From NCBI RefSeq assembly GCF_009939295.1, contig NZ_WVIC01000008.1, positions 1 through 64,000 on the forward strand: DNA of 64,000 nucleotides, written 5' to 3'. This document shows, piece by piece, positions 50,212 to 57,916 of this stretch (its first letter is position 1; every line of letters starts with the position of its first letter). This DNA is from Petrachloros mirabilis ULC683. GTDB taxonomy: Bacteria > Cyanobacteriota > Cyanobacteriia > Thermosynechococcales > Thermosynechococcaceae. Position numbers and translations under genes: made by a program. The notes below the pieces were generated by a model that saw only the letters and a program-made list of their open reading frames with translations, did no database searches and had not been told where the DNA came from.

Positions 50212-50802
50212 TTAAACTAGAACCTCATCGGCAAAGCTATTCCAGCGCAGAAATTCAAAGGGTCCTGCCACTGAACCCCAAATCCGCTCATCACTCTCTG
50301 GGTGACGCCCTCGATCTAAGCTCAGCAATTTATCGTCATTCACCTCAAACTCATTGTCCAGATAAGTGTCCTGGCCTTTCCACACTACCTTGCATCCTTT
50401 TCCGGGTTCCACCCGACCTTTGAAGCTGTGCCCTGTCCATTCCACCAACATGTCGCAACCGGGCATTTCGACAATATGATCGGCTGTGAACTGCTTGAGG
50501 TGGTCAAGATTACGCGCCGCACCGCAGAATTTTTCTTCATCGGCCACCCCATGGTTTTTGAGGCGAATATAGCCATCTTCTGCCAGGAACTCCAGCACCC
50601 GCAGTCGATAGGGCTGACTCAGGGCACAGTCATAGGCTTGCTCCAAGAACAAGCTAACACCGGGCAAAACATCTTGGGGAAGGGGTCGCATACAGACCCG
50701 AATATGGGCAAAAAATGGGGGATTTTCAAAGGCCTGCTCTTGATTGCTGAAATCAGCCGCCATCCAGCGGACAAGGGTGGCCAGATCATTAGAATGGGTC
50801 AT
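50212..50802 (-). CDS. cpcT: Phycobiliprotein chromophore lyase CpcT/CpeT
   Basis: A 196-residue lipocalin-like bilin lyase. The family pattern is seen in LATLVRWMAADFSNQEQA, the QPYRLRVLEFL strand, GCDMLVEWTGHSFKGRVEPG and DERIWGSVAGPFEF. CpcT attaches phycocyanobilin to Cys-153 of the phycocyanin beta subunit, so the organism has phycobilisomes. It is transcribed divergently from the AAA/TOPRIM-like pair. Confidence 0.94.
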   Translation of the reverse strand: MTHSNDLATLVRWMAADFSNQEQAFENPPFFAHIRVCMRPLPQDVLPGVSLFLEQAYDCALSQPYRLRVLEFLAEDGYIRLKNHGVADEEKFCGAARNLDHLKQFTADHIVEMPGCDMLVEWTGHSFKGRVEPGKGCKVVWKGQDTYLDNEFEVNDDKLLSLDRGRHPESDERIWGSVAGPFEFLRWNSFADEVLV

Positions 50803-50844
50803 AATGACAGGACGAAAGGCGAATCGGGTAAAATCTGTTTGTTC

Positions 50845-50878
50845 CTTATTGTAAGACTTGATCTTATTGTAAGACTTG
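50845..50878 (+). promoter_or_regulatory. Tandem 16-bp repeat upstream of the AAA ATPase gene
   Basis: CTTATTGTAAGACTTG occurs twice, 18 bases apart (50845-50860, 50863-50878), about 30 bases before ATG 50905. Direct repeats at this location can be a regulator's binding sites. Position is the only evidence for function. Confidence 0.5.
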
Positions 50879-50904
50879 CTGACTCCCTATCCACAGATGC
50901 CTCA

Positions 50905-52053
50905 ATGCTTATTTCTCGACTGATCTTGAAGAACTGGCGAAATTTCCAGGCTATTGATGTCACTTTAGGAGATCGCATGTTCTTGATTGGCCCTAACGCT
51001 TGTGGCAAGTCCAATTTTTTGGATGTTTTTCGATTCCTACGTGACATTGCCAAGCAGGGGGGAGGTCTTCAGCAGGCTGTCAGCGAACGCGGTGGAGTCT
51101 CTAAAATTCGCTGTCTTTACGCCCGTCGATATCCAGAGATTGAAATTGAAGTGCATCTTGCAGAACGCTCAGGTGAATCGCCTACTTGGCGCTACGCACT
51201 GGGCGTCAAGCAAAAAAGAGGTGCATCCAACCCTTTAAGATTAACTTATGAAAAAGTCTGGCAAGGAGATCAAATTCTTTTAAGTCGCCCTACAACGGAG
51301 GATCATAATGATGAGCTGAGACTTGCTCAAACCCACTTGGAGCAAGTTAACGCCAATACACACTTTAGAGGGATTGCACAATTTTTCGAGTCTATATTCT
51401 ATCTACACCTAGTTCCACAGTTGTTACGCTATCCAGATGCGTTTAGTGGATCTGGCCTGCCAGATGATCCCTTTGGGCGCAGTTTTCTGGAGCGCTTGAT
51501 GAGAACACCAGAACGAACGCGTCGAGCTCGCCTGCGTAAGATTGAAGCGGCTCTACGAGCCGCTGTTCCTCAACTCAGGAATTTGACTGATACAAAAGAT
51601 AGCATGGGAATTCCTCATTTGGAGGCTGTCTACGAACACTGGCGTCCTAATGCGGGTAAACAACAAGAAGATCAGTTTTCAGATGGAACTTTACGCCTCA
51701 TCGGCCTACTTTGGTCACTTTTAGAAACAGATTCGCTACTCTTGCTGGAAGAACCTGAGTTATCCCTTAACCCTGAAATCGTTCGTCAAATTCCAGCCGT
51801 GATCCATAGGGTACAGGGTAACCGCAGACGTCAGGTATTGATGAGCACTCATAGCCCAGAATTACTCAATGATTATGGAATTGGAGGAGAAGAAGTTTTA
51901 ATTCTTCAGCCCAGTGAGGAAGGTACGCACGTTAAAGTCGCCGCAGACAAGCAAGAAATTTTATCTTTATTGCAAGCAGGCTTAAGCATTGCTGAAGCAG
52001 CGATGCCATACGCTAAACCCGTAGGCATTGAAAATTTACGTTCCTTTCGATGA
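50905..52053 (+). CDS. AAA (OLD/ABC-like) ATPase of a two-gene module
   Basis: A 382-residue ATPase of the SMC/OLD-like class. Walker A is GPNACGKSN (K35), the signature-like SDGTLRLIGLL at about 259-269, Walker B LLLLEEPELSLNP with E282/E283, and the switch His in MSTHSPELL (H316). The middle (about 75-240) is a variable insert. The protein resembles predicted ATPases of COG4637 type that occur with nuclease or TOPRIM-like partners. It is directly coupled (ATGA overlap, 4 bases) to the next gene. I chose ATG 50905; the frame is open upstream only as antisense of cpcT. A phage-defence role is inferred from architecture. Confidence 0.85.
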   Translation: MLISRLILKNWRNFQAIDVTLGDRMFLIGPNACGKSNFLDVFRFLRDIAKQGGGLQQAVSERGGVSKIRCLYARRYPEIEIEVHLAERSGESPTWRYALGVKQKRGASNPLRLTYEKVWQGDQILLSRPTTEDHNDELRLAQTHLEQVNANTHFRGIAQFFESIFYLHLVPQLLRYPDAFSGSGLPDDPFGRSFLERLMRTPERTRRARLRKIEAALRAAVPQLRNLTDTKDSMGIPHLEAVYEHWRPNAGKQQEDQFSDGTLRLIGLLWSLLETDSLLLLEEPELSLNPEIVRQIPAVIHRVQGNRRRQVLMSTHSPELLNDYGIGGEEVLILQPSEEGTHVKVAADKQEILSLLQAGLSIAEAAMPYAKPVGIENLRSFR

Positions 52054-52673
52054 AGAACTCTGAAATCATTTCCGTAAATATTGCCGTAGAAGATGATCTC
52101 AGCGAAGCGGTTTTACGAAAACTACTTTGGGAGACTGATCGTCCTTTCGAGGTCTGTGGCTGCTTAGGGAAAACAGGTTTTGGTTATCTCAAAAGTAAAA
52201 TCAAAAATTTTAATCGAGCGGCTCAACATTTTCCCTTCATTGTGCTTACTGATCTTGACCATCAAGCTTGTCCTCTGGCTTTGATGGCAGAATGGCTGCC
52301 GGATCCGCACCACCCAAACTTAATCTTTCGAGTGGCTGTTCGAGAAGTGGAGGCATGGCTTTTGGCAGATCGCAAAAATTTTTCTCAATTCCTAAACATT
52401 AGTGCTGATAAAATTCCCTTGAATGTAGACGAAATTTTAGACCCTAAGCAGCATCTAATTAACCTTGTCCGCCACTGCCGTAGGCAAAGCCTGAAGAAAG
52501 CCATCATTCCTCTAGCGGGCAGCACCGCTACAGTTGGGCGTGACTACAACAATACTCTTATAGGGTTTGTCAATCATGGCTGGCAGGCGCAGACTGCTCA
52601 ACAAAATTCTCCTAGCTTACGCAGAGCAATGGACGCACTGCAACGCTACAAACCTTATCAAAATCAAACATGA
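52050..52673 (+). CDS. TOPRIM-like/DUF4276-like effector candidate, 207 aa
   Basis: The start overlaps the ATPase stop (ATGA). Acidic residues follow the TOPRIM order: Glu14 in NIAVEDDLSE, then Asp68 and Asp70 in FIVLTDLDHQACP. A conserved-looking EVEAWLLADR (Glu101) recalls DUF4276-type proteins. A Gly-rich GKTGFGYLKSKI sits between the first two. Together with the ATPase this resembles two-gene ATPase-TOPRIM modules (the OLD, PARIS and Gabija logic), though I cannot match it to one named system. The last 50 residues are polar. Nuclease activity is a hypothesis. Confidence 0.65.
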   Translation: MKNSEIISVNIAVEDDLSEAVLRKLLWETDRPFEVCGCLGKTGFGYLKSKIKNFNRAAQHFPFIVLTDLDHQACPLALMAEWLPDPHHPNLIFRVAVREVEAWLLADRKNFSQFLNISADKIPLNVDEILDPKQHLINLVRHCRRQSLKKAIIPLAGSTATVGRDYNNTLIGFVNHGWQAQTAQQNSPSLRRAMDALQRYKPYQNQT

Positions 52674-54453: not shown

Positions 54454-57198
54454 ATGGATGCGTTACCCGTTGACACGACTGAACTGATTGCCGGAGTTGT
54501 CGGCACGCTCCTACTGTTGGGGCTTGGCATTGGCCTTGGCCTCACCCGCAAGCGCCAAGCTCAACTTCAAGCCAAACAAGATCAGCAACGCCAAGCCGCA
54601 GCAACAGCCCAGGCGGAGCAGCTTGCCAAACTCACCCAAGAGAACCAAAAGCTCACAGAAGCACTGGCTTTGGCAAAACCGGTAGTGACTGCCCTAGAAC
54701 AAGAAGTTCAGACCCTAAACCAAGCCAATGCCAAGTTGACCGAAGACCTCAAAACCCAGACCCTAGCCACCCAACAAAGGGAAGCCGAACTCAAGCAACT
54801 CCGGCTCCAAACCAAGTCTGTGCAGGCCGAACTCACTGATCAGAAAAACCAAAACCAGATCCTAGGGGATGAAACTGCTCAACTTCGGCATACTCGCCAA
54901 ACCCTAGTCACAGATCTAGAAGCCTTAAGTGCTCAAAATCAAGCCCTCAGCGATCAGGTGAAGCGGCTCTCTTCTGAAAGTCAATCTCTCAATGACAGGC
55001 TTGACACCCTCACCGCTGAACAGCAACCCCTCTTAGACCGAGCGACTTTCTTGGAGACCCAAATCCAAACCCTCAGCGACACCATTGATGCTCTCACCCA
55101 TGAAAACCAAACCCTGGTTAGCCAGGTTACTCACCTAGACTCTAAAACTCAAACCCTCAGCCAAGAGCTGGAAACGCTTGCCCACACCAGGCAATCCCTC
55201 ACTCAGGAAGTTGATCGCTTAAAGACTGAAAAAAAAGCGCTAACCACTGAATTAGGGCATCTTCAGACTCAATATCAGGTGCTCAACGAAGAAGCGGCAG
55301 GGGTGTCTACCCAGACCCAAGAACTGACCGCACAAATTGCTAATTTGGAGCTCCAGAATCAGAGGCTTGAAGCTGAACTCACCCAACAAACCACCCTCAA
55401 CCAACAACTCACTACTCAGGTCACAGACTTTGAATCTCAGTGCCAAGCGTTAGCCGCCGAAGCCCAACAGCGTCGCCAACAACAGCAAACCCTAGAAGCC
55501 GATCTAGCCCAAGCCATCGCCGCCCGGGTCGATTGGGAGGCAGACCTAGAGCGCCTCACCAGCACTCAGACCGAGTTAGAAGCTGCTTTGACCGAAGCGC
55601 AGTCCCTGATCGCGGTAGGGGATGCAAGCCAGCAGCAGGCTGCTGAGCAGATAGATGCCCTGCGGCAGCAGGTAAAAATCCTGGAAATTGAAAAGGTTGA
55701 GCTGGGGGAAGCCCGCCAACAAGCCGAAGTGCAGGCTCATCAGCTTCAGTCTGAGGTTGAGCAACTGACTGCACAACAACAACGGCTGGAAAATAAGATC
55801 AAGCAACAGCAGCGTCAGCTCGAAGTATCGCAATCTGAACGCCAAACTCAGCCTGAACTCCAACAGGCACTGCAAGCTGCGATCGCAGCCCAATCAGATC
55901 TAGAAACAGACCTGCAAGCGGCTCAGGAACATATTAGCGATCTTCAAGATCAGCTCGTAGCCCAATCAGATTTAGAAACACACCTGCAAGCAGCCCAGGA
56001 GCGTATTAGCGATCTTCAAGACCAGCTCGAACAGTTAACCCAAGCGCAAACCACCCACACCGAGGACTGGGAGAACGCCCAACAGCAGTTACGCGATCGC
56101 AACCAGCAGATCCAGGCACTCACCCAGTCCTTAGCCGCCACCCAACCAATCGCTGAGGCGCTTCGAGAGCAAGTCACTGAGCTAGAGGCTCAAGTCCAGC
56201 AAGCTGTCACCCAGGCCAAAACCTTGCAGAAGCAGGTGGCTGGACTCACCCAGGAGAAGAAGCAGCTCCAGCAACAGGTGCAGCAACAAGAGCGCGATCG
56301 CACCTGCTGGCAAGCCACCCAAGCAGAACTTGAACAGCAGCAAACCCAACTAGCACAAGACCTTCAAGCTCAGCTTCAGGCTAACGATCAGATCCAGCAA
56401 GATCTCCAAGCCGCCCAAGCCCAAATTCCCGATCTCACCGCCCAAATCCAAACCCTAACCCAGGAACAAGCGCAGCGCGATAGCCAAAGGCTGGTCGAAG
56501 ACCATCGCACCCTCCAAACCACCCAGACCCAACTAGCTAAGCTTCAAGCTGAACTAGACACGCTCACCGCACAACAAGCCACCCTAGAGCACTTGCAACA
56601 GGCCAACGCTGATTTAGAACGACAATTGCAAGCACAGGTCAATTCTCAGTCCTCTGAGTCAAGCAACGCCACCATCGCGGCATTAGAGCAGCAACTGCAA
56701 ACTCAAACCCAAGAAAAACAAGCCCTTCAAGACGCCATGAAGTTGGCTAAAAACATGGTTGTCACCCTAGAGCAACAGATTGCTACCCTGATCCAAGAAA
56801 ATCAGCGCTTGCAGGCTCAAGCCACTGCCACTTCTAGCATTGAAGCCCCAGCAGCCCCTGCCTCACCGGAGGAGTCAGCCCTCACCCCCCCTACCCTAGC
56901 CGCGGAACCCGAAGTGACAGAACCAGAGGCTTCGCCGTTGGTTGCAGAGGTTCCCAGTCAAATTTTTGAGGGCAAAAGTGTTGTGATTACCGGAAAACTG
57001 GAACTCATCTCTGCCGATCGCGCTAAAGCACTCATCGAAGCGGCAGGGGGGCAAATCAATGCCCACGCCAGCTCCAAAACCAGCTACATAATTGTGGGCA
57101 AAAACCCTGGTAACAAGCTCAAGAAAGCTGAAAAACACGGAGTTCCCCAACTCACTGAGACCCAATTGTTAGAGATGCTGGGGTTAACACCCGACTAG
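54454..57198 (+). CDS. Membrane-anchored coiled-coil protein with C-terminal BRCT domain
   Basis: A 914-residue protein. One transmembrane helix lies near the N-terminus (residues 10-28, ELIAGVVGTLLLLGLGIGLG) followed by TRKR. Residues 35-790 form an almost continuous Gln/Glu/Leu/Thr-rich coiled coil with tandem near-repeats (SDLETDLQAAQEHISDLQDQ then SDLETHLQAAQERISDLQDQ). A Pro/Ala/Glu linker follows, then a BRCT domain at 838-913 like that of NAD-dependent DNA ligase (IFEGKSVVITGKLE, AAGGQINAHASSKTSYIIVG, GNKLKKAEKHGVPQLTE). BRCT domains bind DNA ends or phosphopeptides, so this could tether DNA or a partner to the membrane (inference). ATG 54454 follows pheA by four bases. Confidence 0.85.
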   Translation: MDALPVDTTELIAGVVGTLLLLGLGIGLGLTRKRQAQLQAKQDQQRQAAATAQAEQLAKLTQENQKLTEALALAKPVVTALEQEVQTLNQANAKLTEDLKTQTLATQQREAELKQLRLQTKSVQAELTDQKNQNQILGDETAQLRHTRQTLVTDLEALSAQNQALSDQVKRLSSESQSLNDRLDTLTAEQQPLLDRATFLETQIQTLSDTIDALTHENQTLVSQVTHLDSKTQTLSQELETLAHTRQSLTQEVDRLKTEKKALTTELGHLQTQYQVLNEEAAGVSTQTQELTAQIANLELQNQRLEAELTQQTTLNQQLTTQVTDFESQCQALAAEAQQRRQQQQTLEADLAQAIAARVDWEADLERLTSTQTELEAALTEAQSLIAVGDASQQQAAEQIDALRQQVKILEIEKVELGEARQQAEVQAHQLQSEVEQLTAQQQRLENKIKQQQRQLEVSQSERQTQPELQQALQAAIAAQSDLETDLQAAQEHISDLQDQLVAQSDLETHLQAAQERISDLQDQLEQLTQAQTTHTEDWENAQQQLRDRNQQIQALTQSLAATQPIAEALREQVTELEAQVQQAVTQAKTLQKQVAGLTQEKKQLQQQVQQQERDRTCWQATQAELEQQQTQLAQDLQAQLQANDQIQQDLQAAQAQIPDLTAQIQTLTQEQAQRDSQRLVEDHRTLQTTQTQLAKLQAELDTLTAQQATLEHLQQANADLERQLQAQVNSQSSESSNATIAALEQQLQTQTQEKQALQDAMKLAKNMVVTLEQQIATLIQENQRLQAQATATSSIEAPAAPASPEESALTPPTLAAEPEVTEPEASPLVAEVPSQIFEGKSVVITGKLELISADRAKALIEAAGGQINAHASSKTSYIIVGKNPGNKLKKAEKHGVPQLTETQLLEMLGLTPD

Positions 57199-57214: not shown

Positions 57215-57916
57215 ATGGGCATAACCGTGGAGTTTCAATCTGGCGCTGTAGAGTATCCCGGCCTTGCGGCTCTGGTTCAAGCCATCTATGACTCGTTGCT
57301 GGTTGATCTGAAATTGGCCAGCCTTAGACCCCATGATCCTGTGGTGGTCTATGATACGCCCTATCCCTGGCAGCTTCTCGGCTCTGGCAATTATGCCGCT
57401 GTGTTTGCCCACCCTGATTATCCTCAACAGGTGGTCAAAGTTTATGCCCCGGGTCGCCCGGGTTGGCAGCAGGAAGTCGAAGTCTATCGTCGCCTGGGTG
57501 ACCACCCTGCTTTTTCAGCGTGTTTCTATGCTGCGCCCCACTTTCTCGTTTTGAAACGGCTGTGCGGTGTTACCCTCTACGACTGTTTACTTCAAGGCTT
57601 GTCCATTCCCGAGCCAGTTATTCTTGATATTGATAACGCCCTTGCATTTGCTCGTCAGCGGGGACTGTTTCCCCACGATGTGCATGGCCGCAATGTGATG
57701 ATGTGGCAGGGGCAAGGGCTGGTTGTGGATATCTCAGATTTTCTGAATCCTGAACCCTGTCATGCCTGGGATGATGTCAAGCGAGGGTATTATTGGCTGT
57801 ACCGCCCCCTTTTGCTGGGGCACTCGATGCGGATCCCCGCACTGGTGCTAGATCAAGTTCGGGCTTTATACCGCTGCTATCGAGCCTGTAAAAAGCTTCT
57901 CCCAGGGAATTTCTAA
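57215..57916 (+). CDS. Small kinase-like (protein kinase/APH fold) protein
   Basis: A 233-residue protein with kinase-like motifs in reduced form: LLGSGNYAAVFAHPDYP (glycine loop), QVVKVYAP (candidate Lys), HFLVLKRLCGVTL (hinge), FPHDVHGRNVMM (catalytic loop DxHGxN) and VVDISDF (DFG-like metal site). The spacing fits compact bacterial kinases such as RIO, Bud32 or APH types. Substrate unknown. It begins 17 bases after the BRCT gene, so the two may be co-expressed. Confidence 0.75.
   Translation: MGITVEFQSGAVEYPGLAALVQAIYDSLLVDLKLASLRPHDPVVVYDTPYPWQLLGSGNYAAVFAHPDYPQQVVKVYAPGRPGWQQEVEVYRRLGDHPAFSACFYAAPHFLVLKRLCGVTLYDCLLQGLSIPEPVILDIDNALAFARQRGLFPHDVHGRNVMMWQGQGLVVDISDFLNPEPCHAWDDVKRGYYWLYRPLLLGHSMRIPALVLDQVRALYRCYRACKKLLPGNF

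Follow-up and report, generated by a model that had tools for sequence, protein, structure and literature searches.

Gene and feature organization

The window (the whole 64,000-nucleotide stretch of Petrachloros mirabilis ULC683 contig NZ_WVIC01000008.1 that was analysed) encodes, on its forward strand, a 914-aa protein (P0001) with an N-terminal transmembrane helix, a heptad-periodic coil of about 750 residues, a Pro/Glu linker and a C-terminal BRCT domain. The open reading frame (ORF) follows a prephenate dehydratase gene (PDT and ACT domains), whose stop it trails by 4 bases, and a GGAG lies 10 bases 5' of the ATG of the ORF. A promoter and terminator scan of the locus gave no signals above those of shuffled sequences. 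ORF analysis, hydrophobicity, periodicity, Pfam matches and fold prediction confirm the membrane-anchored coiled coil of about 750 residues with a terminal BRCT that a first-pass annotation had described. The features are:

54454..57198, +, gene for the 914-aa membrane-anchored coiled-coil BRCT protein (ORF and domain matches; the single such locus in the genome)
54484..54543, +, predicted transmembrane anchor, residues 11-30, N-out/C-in (hydrophobicity and charge pattern)
54544..54555, +, basic stop-transfer TRKR, residues 31-34 (sequence; K/R excess after the helix across the family)
54559..56820, +, coiled-coil rod, about residues 36-789 (3.5-residue periodicity of 36-770; helical in a low-confidence full-length model)
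54619..54738, +, membrane-proximal copy of the motif L.EALxLAKxVVxxLEQ (alignment; profile A3, partly built from this copy, E 3.4e-15)
56683..56811, +, second motif copy at the far rod end (profile A3, partly built from this copy, E 1.7e-16)
56821..56952, +, Pro/Glu/Ala-rich linker, residues 790-833 (composition; pLDDT <50 at residues 786-835)
56953..57177, +, BRCT domain, residues 834-908 (Pfam PF00533, AlphaFold2 model, structure matches)
57215..57916, +, small kinase-like ORF, 233 aa, a neighbour and not a conserved partner (16 bases after the BRCT-gene stop)

AlphaFold modelled the full-length protein poorly (pLDDT 54.7, pTM 0.22; pLDDT of about 30 at the anchor), and this model can be read only as a mostly helical stretch followed by an unstructured stretch and BRCT elements, being too poor for the anchor and rod.

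The downstream kinase-like ORF, which the first-pass annotation had pointed out, has a single Pfam match (YrbL-PhoP_reg, E 0.012) that falls under the cut-off. It occurs in 13 of 39 genomes, the present one included (12 of the 38 others, with 56-79% identity in long matches), and is also present in genomes without the rod gene. In the four relatives that carry both genes (G003, G006, G013 and G021) they lie on different contigs, and the kinase-like gene is not among the genes common to the 35 neighbourhoods fetched. We reject it as an operon partner because it sits on another contig in relatives and is present without the rod gene, and it lends no support to a link with a phosphoprotein. Nor did the 35 neighbourhoods reveal any cluster shared across the family's loci, except for the BRCT protein itself. 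A gene that reads as RecF-like by sequence adjoins the rod gene in cluster c2 (5 of 35 neighbourhoods).

Membrane anchor and topology

The most hydrophobic 19-residue segment of P0001 is residues 11-29 (mean Kyte-Doolittle 2.25), and the 10-residue tail N-terminal of the helix has no K/R and three D/E. Under the positive-inside rule, basic residues flank a transmembrane helix on its cytoplasmic side. Fewer K/R are found in the tail than in the 20 residues after the helix in all 46 distinct full ORFs of the family, a set that includes about 11 near-alike Microcystis copies, and the tail is devoid of K/R in 45 of the 46, its shortness being partly by construction since start codons were sought within 22 residues of the helix. 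A looser start rule (44 rows) chose an upstream stretch in four (L033, L035, L063 and L068). With more K/R behind the helix than before it, the rod most likely faces the cytoplasm, as the first-pass annotation had predicted from the TRKR stop-transfer, and the look of an uncleaved N-out anchor extends throughout the family (46/46). A cleaved signal peptide, which that annotation had named as the outcome that would count against it, is unlikely on the same charge pattern.

Rod, terminal motif and linker

The hydrophobic power of residues 36-770 at a period of 3.5 residues is 59.2, where shuffles average 9.3 (sd 2.2) and none of 2000 scored as high. As one continuous helix the rod would measure about 110 nm. 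Family members differ widely in size: the 46 distinct full ORFs range from 447 to 1210 aa, and L128 has about 350 aa. Across 14 Microcystis-side proteins, mean column conservation exceeds 55% at the BRCT end and nowhere else.

Many rods on the window's side carry an L.EALxLAKxVVxxLEQ-like block directly N-terminal of the linker, some of them with a membrane-near copy too, and the motif of about 30 residues also stands at both rod ends in L106, L038 and L107. A 12-row profile (A3) matched 4 of 155 cyanobacterial genomes at E 1e-4, with two matches per genome spaced 631 to 692 residues apart; three of these genomes (G000, G003 and G492) had supplied profile rows, and G455 is the sole independent one. 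All A3 matches in the 155 genomes lie inside ORFs of the anchor-rod-BRCT family. Five of the eight complete frames from family code f13 (L111, L112, L115, L116 and L117) have both a near copy (E ~1e-7 or better) and a far copy, the latter weak in four of the five, and in the other three (L110, L113 and L114) no copy passed at E 0.01. The near copy is missing or unrecognisable in several Acaryochloris members, and a pattern search of the Microcystis-side rods found the motif absent. The rod of G616 (L118/L122) repeats the motif at frame residues 1, 138, 222 and 338, hinting at a way in which rods lengthen.

BRCT domain and its nearest relatives

Pfam PF00533 matched P0001 with 44.2 bits (cut-off 21.3) and all six members of set A2 at E 0.001. 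AlphaFold2 modelling from 25 family rows returned the BRCT order of elements (pLDDT 78.6, pTM 0.62). The best Foldseek match in the PDB was the RFC1 BRCT (2ebu; E 2.9e-7, TM 0.75, 1.5 A over 76 columns), and a LigA-containing model (9a6z, E 2.3e-6) was also among the best solved structures. Among the best 50 rows listed by VIA-align 2, RFC1 and LigA rows had Z values of 10.0-11.9 and the others ran from 9.7 down to 7.9. By sequence, too, LigA and RFC1 are the closest solved relatives. Structure prediction thus speaks against a C-terminal domain with some fold other than BRCT, the other outcome that the first-pass annotation had named as counting against it.

According to portions of PMC10386641, the BRCT proteins of most bacterial species seem to number one or two, DNA ligase and a polymerase III subunit. 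Most genomes searched here have one BRCT match, which fits the earlier remark that bacterial BRCT domains belong mostly to LigA. The present genome has two; the other lies on a different contig, in a 719-aa frame that ends in a BRCT bearing the AGSKL signature of the LigA type, and P0001 is 44% identical to it over the BRCT. A plasmid search with P0001 returned 23 records, of which the best 20 cover 8-10% of the query, at the BRCT, and the gene was ligA wherever one was named.

P0001 and LigA share a domain family, and their BRCT clades adjoin. P0001 differs in having no ligase domains in the Pfam scan and in carrying its BRCT on a membrane rod; the NCBIfam model dnlj scores 47.6 bits where 444 are needed, with its best stretch at residues 703-905. 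Similarly, RFC1 provides the best structural match to the BRCT, but its context is the eukaryotic clamp loader, whose AAA+ part is absent in P0001.

Pocket residues and the basic second helix

We take T846, G847 and K888 to be the phosphate-pocket residues, equivalent to the Ser/Thr-Gly and Lys of phosphopeptide-binding BRCT domains. G847 and K888 are kept in 38 of 38 family rows and 30 of 30 LigA rows. T846 is kept in every LigA row (30/30) and every window-side row (22/22), but is replaced by L, A or V in all 16 Microcystis-side rows. Because of this loss a universal phospho-reader role for the family is unlikely. The phosphorylated partner suggested in the first-pass annotation is therefore a weaker proposal for the family as a whole and is possible on the window's side, where the T, G and K are all kept.

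The second helix of P0001 is Lys-rich (K888, K890, K891 and K894) and, in the family, more basic than in LigA, reading mostly PG.KLKKA.K as against AGSKL..A. K894 is present in 38/38 family rows versus 1/30 LigA rows; nine of the 38 were found by a DNA pattern that requires it, and the remaining 29, found without that requirement, have it too. K or R occupies position 890 in 33/38 family rows versus 7/30 LigA rows, and the mean net charge of residues 887-894 rises from 1.43 in LigA to about 3.0 in the family. Over the whole domain the means differ little (family 2.05, LigA 0.97; p 0.018), with net charges of 0 to +3 on the window's side, and since the rows are related, p-values of these residue and charge comparisons overstate independence. 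Three further members, read after the 38, vary more: positions 891 and 894 are Gln and Glu in L131 and both Arg in L128, whereas in L130 the lysines are retained and one residue is added. A surface that is basic next to the pocket is widespread in the family and supplies the main sequence argument, an inferential one, for a DNA ligand.

Distribution across cyanobacteria

The phylogenetic spread of the architecture, a check that the first-pass annotation had proposed, was followed with a 25-row profile in 388 genomes of the class (E 1e-20, frames then read). The anchor-rod-BRCT layout recurs in six cyanobacterial family codes and in at least 36 of the 388 genomes (f1, 11; f22, 11 of 11; f13, 10; f21, 2; f16, 1; f36, 1), a lower bound. 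The whole gene was seen in 32 of these 36; it runs off the contig end in G010 and G616, is in pieces in G013 and is broken in G180. Within f1, the window's own family code, the gene is present in 10 of 23 genomes, the G013 copy being the one in pieces. A search of 386 genomes of the phylum found a second BRCT match in all 17 genomes of f22, and 15 of the 17 frames read are complete anchor-rod-BRCT genes; in G267 the anchor lies outside the stretch retrieved, and the copy in the Epithemia turgida endosymbiont (L053) is broken. The same search found no f23 genome with two BRCT matches. In several f1 genera, and in most of the other families searched, there is at most one BRCT match, and the gene is missing from most of the genomes searched.

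A pattern scan of named genomes returned 37 stretches, 34 of them with a family BRCT and several cut by the locus edge; the other three (L067, L081 and L085) are chance matches. Because the pattern demands N, K, D or E where f13 members have S, the scan undercounts. The genera represented are Microcystis, Crocosphaera, Cyanothece, Snowella, Hydrococcus, Aphanothece, Chroococcus and Acaryochloris, together with Lyngbya confervoides BDU141951, Elainella saxicola, Epithemia endosymbionts and several MAGs. In the E. turgida endosymbiont (L053 5934-7312, the same record region as L074) the break falls near the BRCT, and the copies in the endosymbionts of Epithemia clementina (L076) and uoEpiScrs1 (L089) are intact. 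In MAG RU_4_10 (L040 6030-7956) the rod gene is split among three frames, perhaps through an assembly error. One record titled Candidatus Gracilibacteria (L091 7669-7998) encodes a BRCT that is nearly that of Hydrococcus L072, for which reason we regard it as probably a misbinned Hydrococcus-like contig.

Four genomes with two BRCT matches outside f1 and f22 do not belong to the family: both frames of G191 have the ligase motif, the second frame of G087 is LigA-like by eye, that of G143 is a fragment and G219 has a 399-aa frame without a coil. This last frame (L103) ends in a BRCT and, by sequence, would represent a different non-ligase BRCT protein.

Evolution and selection

A tree of the BRCT domains separates 38 family rows from 30 LigA-labelled rows by one branch (support 99/89; 98% of bootstrap trees), as does a smaller tree with 27 family rows against 30 LigA-labelled rows (support 99/93), and the Microcystis-side rows form one group (99/96). 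These trees use 78-79 columns with LigA as the sole outside group, so that they do not fix the root, or hence a derivation from LigA. A row was labelled LigA on the strength of its frame and BRCT; the ligase motif NPRNxA occurs in the same frame in 25 of the 30, and two of the other five are short frames. Since the family BRCTs form one clade and those of the Microcystis side one group, the simplest reading is that the BRCT part arose once and was then kept or transferred patchily; gain and loss of the gene would each account for such a spread. The trees do not support the idea that each genome recently duplicated its own LigA BRCT, the family BRCTs being one clade beside that of LigA.

The BRCT protein is mostly under purifying selection. 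Among 11 pairs compared, ten gave a dN/dS value for the BRCT, which was 0.02-0.23 in eight; the values of 0.45 and 1.37 come from two of the three Microcystis pairs and rest on very few changes. For the rod, dN/dS was 0.09-0.38 in the nine pairs with a value, and for the first 70 residues it was 0.11-0.61 in nine of ten pairs and 1.55 in one. All of these values are rough for pairs with dS >1.

Comparison with known systems

No description of the anchor-rod-BRCT family, experimental work included, was found among the titles, abstract openings and paper passages searched in an open-access library, PMC3978658 among them, and mention elsewhere is possible. An analogue in layout is RocS of Streptococcus pneumoniae, which, according to passages of PMC11500499, has a DNA-binding end, a coiled coil and a membrane end and links the chromosome to the membrane. 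The order of parts is opposite: RocS attaches through a C-terminal amphipathic helix, P0001 through an N-terminal transmembrane helix. RocS also has a different DNA-binding domain and DUF536, and the Pfam scan of P0001 gave neither DUF536 nor an N-terminal DNA-binding match. By analogy, the anchor-rod-BRCT protein may work like RocS though unrelated to it.

Likeness to SMC/Rad50 proteins is confined to the coil; P0001 has no ATPase head match, and TIGR02168 scores 81 bits versus 567, with its best stretch at residues 39-291. Syc2039, Slr7083, HmpF and Fm7001 are long cyanobacterial coiled coils, some of them placed at the cell periphery by passages of PMC7002697, and the term BRCT is absent from the main text of that paper.

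Proposed function

Our favoured reading, held tentatively, is that the protein tethers DNA to the membrane. The N-terminal helix would fix it in the plasma or thylakoid membrane with the rod facing the cytoplasm, and the heptad region would dimerise or oligomerise into a rod, about 110 nm long in P0001 if continuous and shorter or longer in relatives. At the far end the BRCT, on its flexible linker, would hold DNA through the phosphate pocket and the Lys-rich second helix, either without sequence specificity or at ends or nicks, like the BRCTs of RFC1 and LigA. The outcome would be a flexible link of chromosome copies to the membrane, with a putative role in placing chromosomes.

We favour DNA as the ligand because the closest folds, the RFC1 and LigA BRCTs, bind DNA and because basic residues lie beside the pocket; DNA binding by the protein itself is inferred from these features of its sequence. 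Passages of PMC9293009 report that the isolated RFC1 BRCT binds DNA with a Kd of ~10 nM, preferring a 5' phosphate, and that in intact RFC the domain grips DNA mainly with a face other than the 5'-phosphate groove. Deinococcus radiodurans LigA lacking its BRCT has lower affinity for dsDNA, according to parts of PMC10504179. A tether also suits the retention of the architecture although total length varies widely, the conservation centred on the BRCT end in Microcystis-side proteins, the single clade of family BRCTs and the low BRCT dN/dS of most pairs. Against it, neighbouring genes are not conserved and give no pointer to segregation, the pocket Thr is gone from the Microcystis side, and the gain of lysines is less uniform in L131 and L128. 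Also against it are the whole-domain charge, little higher than in LigA, the preference of BRCT domains for protein ligands, the use of another face by the RFC1 BRCT in intact RFC, and the higher BRCT dN/dS of two Microcystis pairs. Since most genomes searched lack the gene, the protein is an accessory and no general segregation factor. The fuller proposal, that these proteins are a cyanobacterial family of chromosome-to-membrane tethers in which a ligase-type BRCT tip grips DNA at the end of a variable rod (which one branch marks with the conserved motif at one end or both) with a transmembrane anchor and so holds or spaces many chromosome copies, is doubtful.

The chief rival, itself rather unlikely, is a docking tether whose BRCT brings a protein partner to the membrane over a distance set by the rod, the partner being phosphorylated on the window's side and not necessarily elsewhere. 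BRCT domains are mainly protein-interaction modules, as sections of PMC10386641 and PMC9293009 describe them, and the pocket is complete in all 22 window-side rows. The replacement of the Thr in all 16 Microcystis-side rows, the lack of any conserved kinase or partner gene adjoining and the DNA-binding nature of the nearest relatives argue the other way.

A coiled-coil cytoskeletal scaffold, crescentin-like or HmpF-like, whose BRCT only self-associates or caps filaments, is unlikely. P0001 matches the crescentin rod (PF19220, 32.3 bits versus 100), intermediate filament (PF00038, 25 versus 40) and HmpF (23 bits) models weakly, and some relatives score better with coil models from eukaryotes (the CENP-F zipper in five of six members, best E 9.4e-18); however, the P0001 scores are below the cut-offs, long coils generally give such matches, and on the Microcystis side the conserved part is the BRCT and not the rod. 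Filament formation by cyanobacterial coiled-coil-rich proteins is reported in parts of PMC7002697, and rods with the motif at either end could touch end to end through it. An anchor for repair sites, with a BRCT that detects nicks, gaps or 5' ends, as that of LigA may, and brings damaged or replicating DNA to the membrane instead of positioning chromosomes, is very unlikely, for the clade adjoining that of LigA, the RFC1-like fold and the RecF-like neighbour in cluster c2 are set against loci elsewhere that share no gene cluster and a Microcystis side without the pocket Thr.

If DNA is bound, the protein would represent a non-ligase use of BRCT in bacteria and would physically join the nucleoid to the membrane in cyanobacteria. 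Sections of the review PMC7766704 describe these organisms as polyploid and as lacking a classical ParABS system and, apparently, nucleoid occlusion; the reference list of that review names a ParA-like protein affecting chromosome distribution. Were the DNA tether correct, it would offer a way of holding or spacing many chromosome copies in such lineages. Even with a protein ligand, a BRCT-tipped membrane rod in Microcystis and Crocosphaera would give a new handle on a family not found described.

Upstream in the window, two overlapping forward-strand genes at 50572-52050 and 52050-52673 match the PADLOC candidate anti-phage system HEC-01 (HEC-01A, 522 bits; HEC-01B, 236 bits), and the pair lies upstream of a DUF1997 gene.
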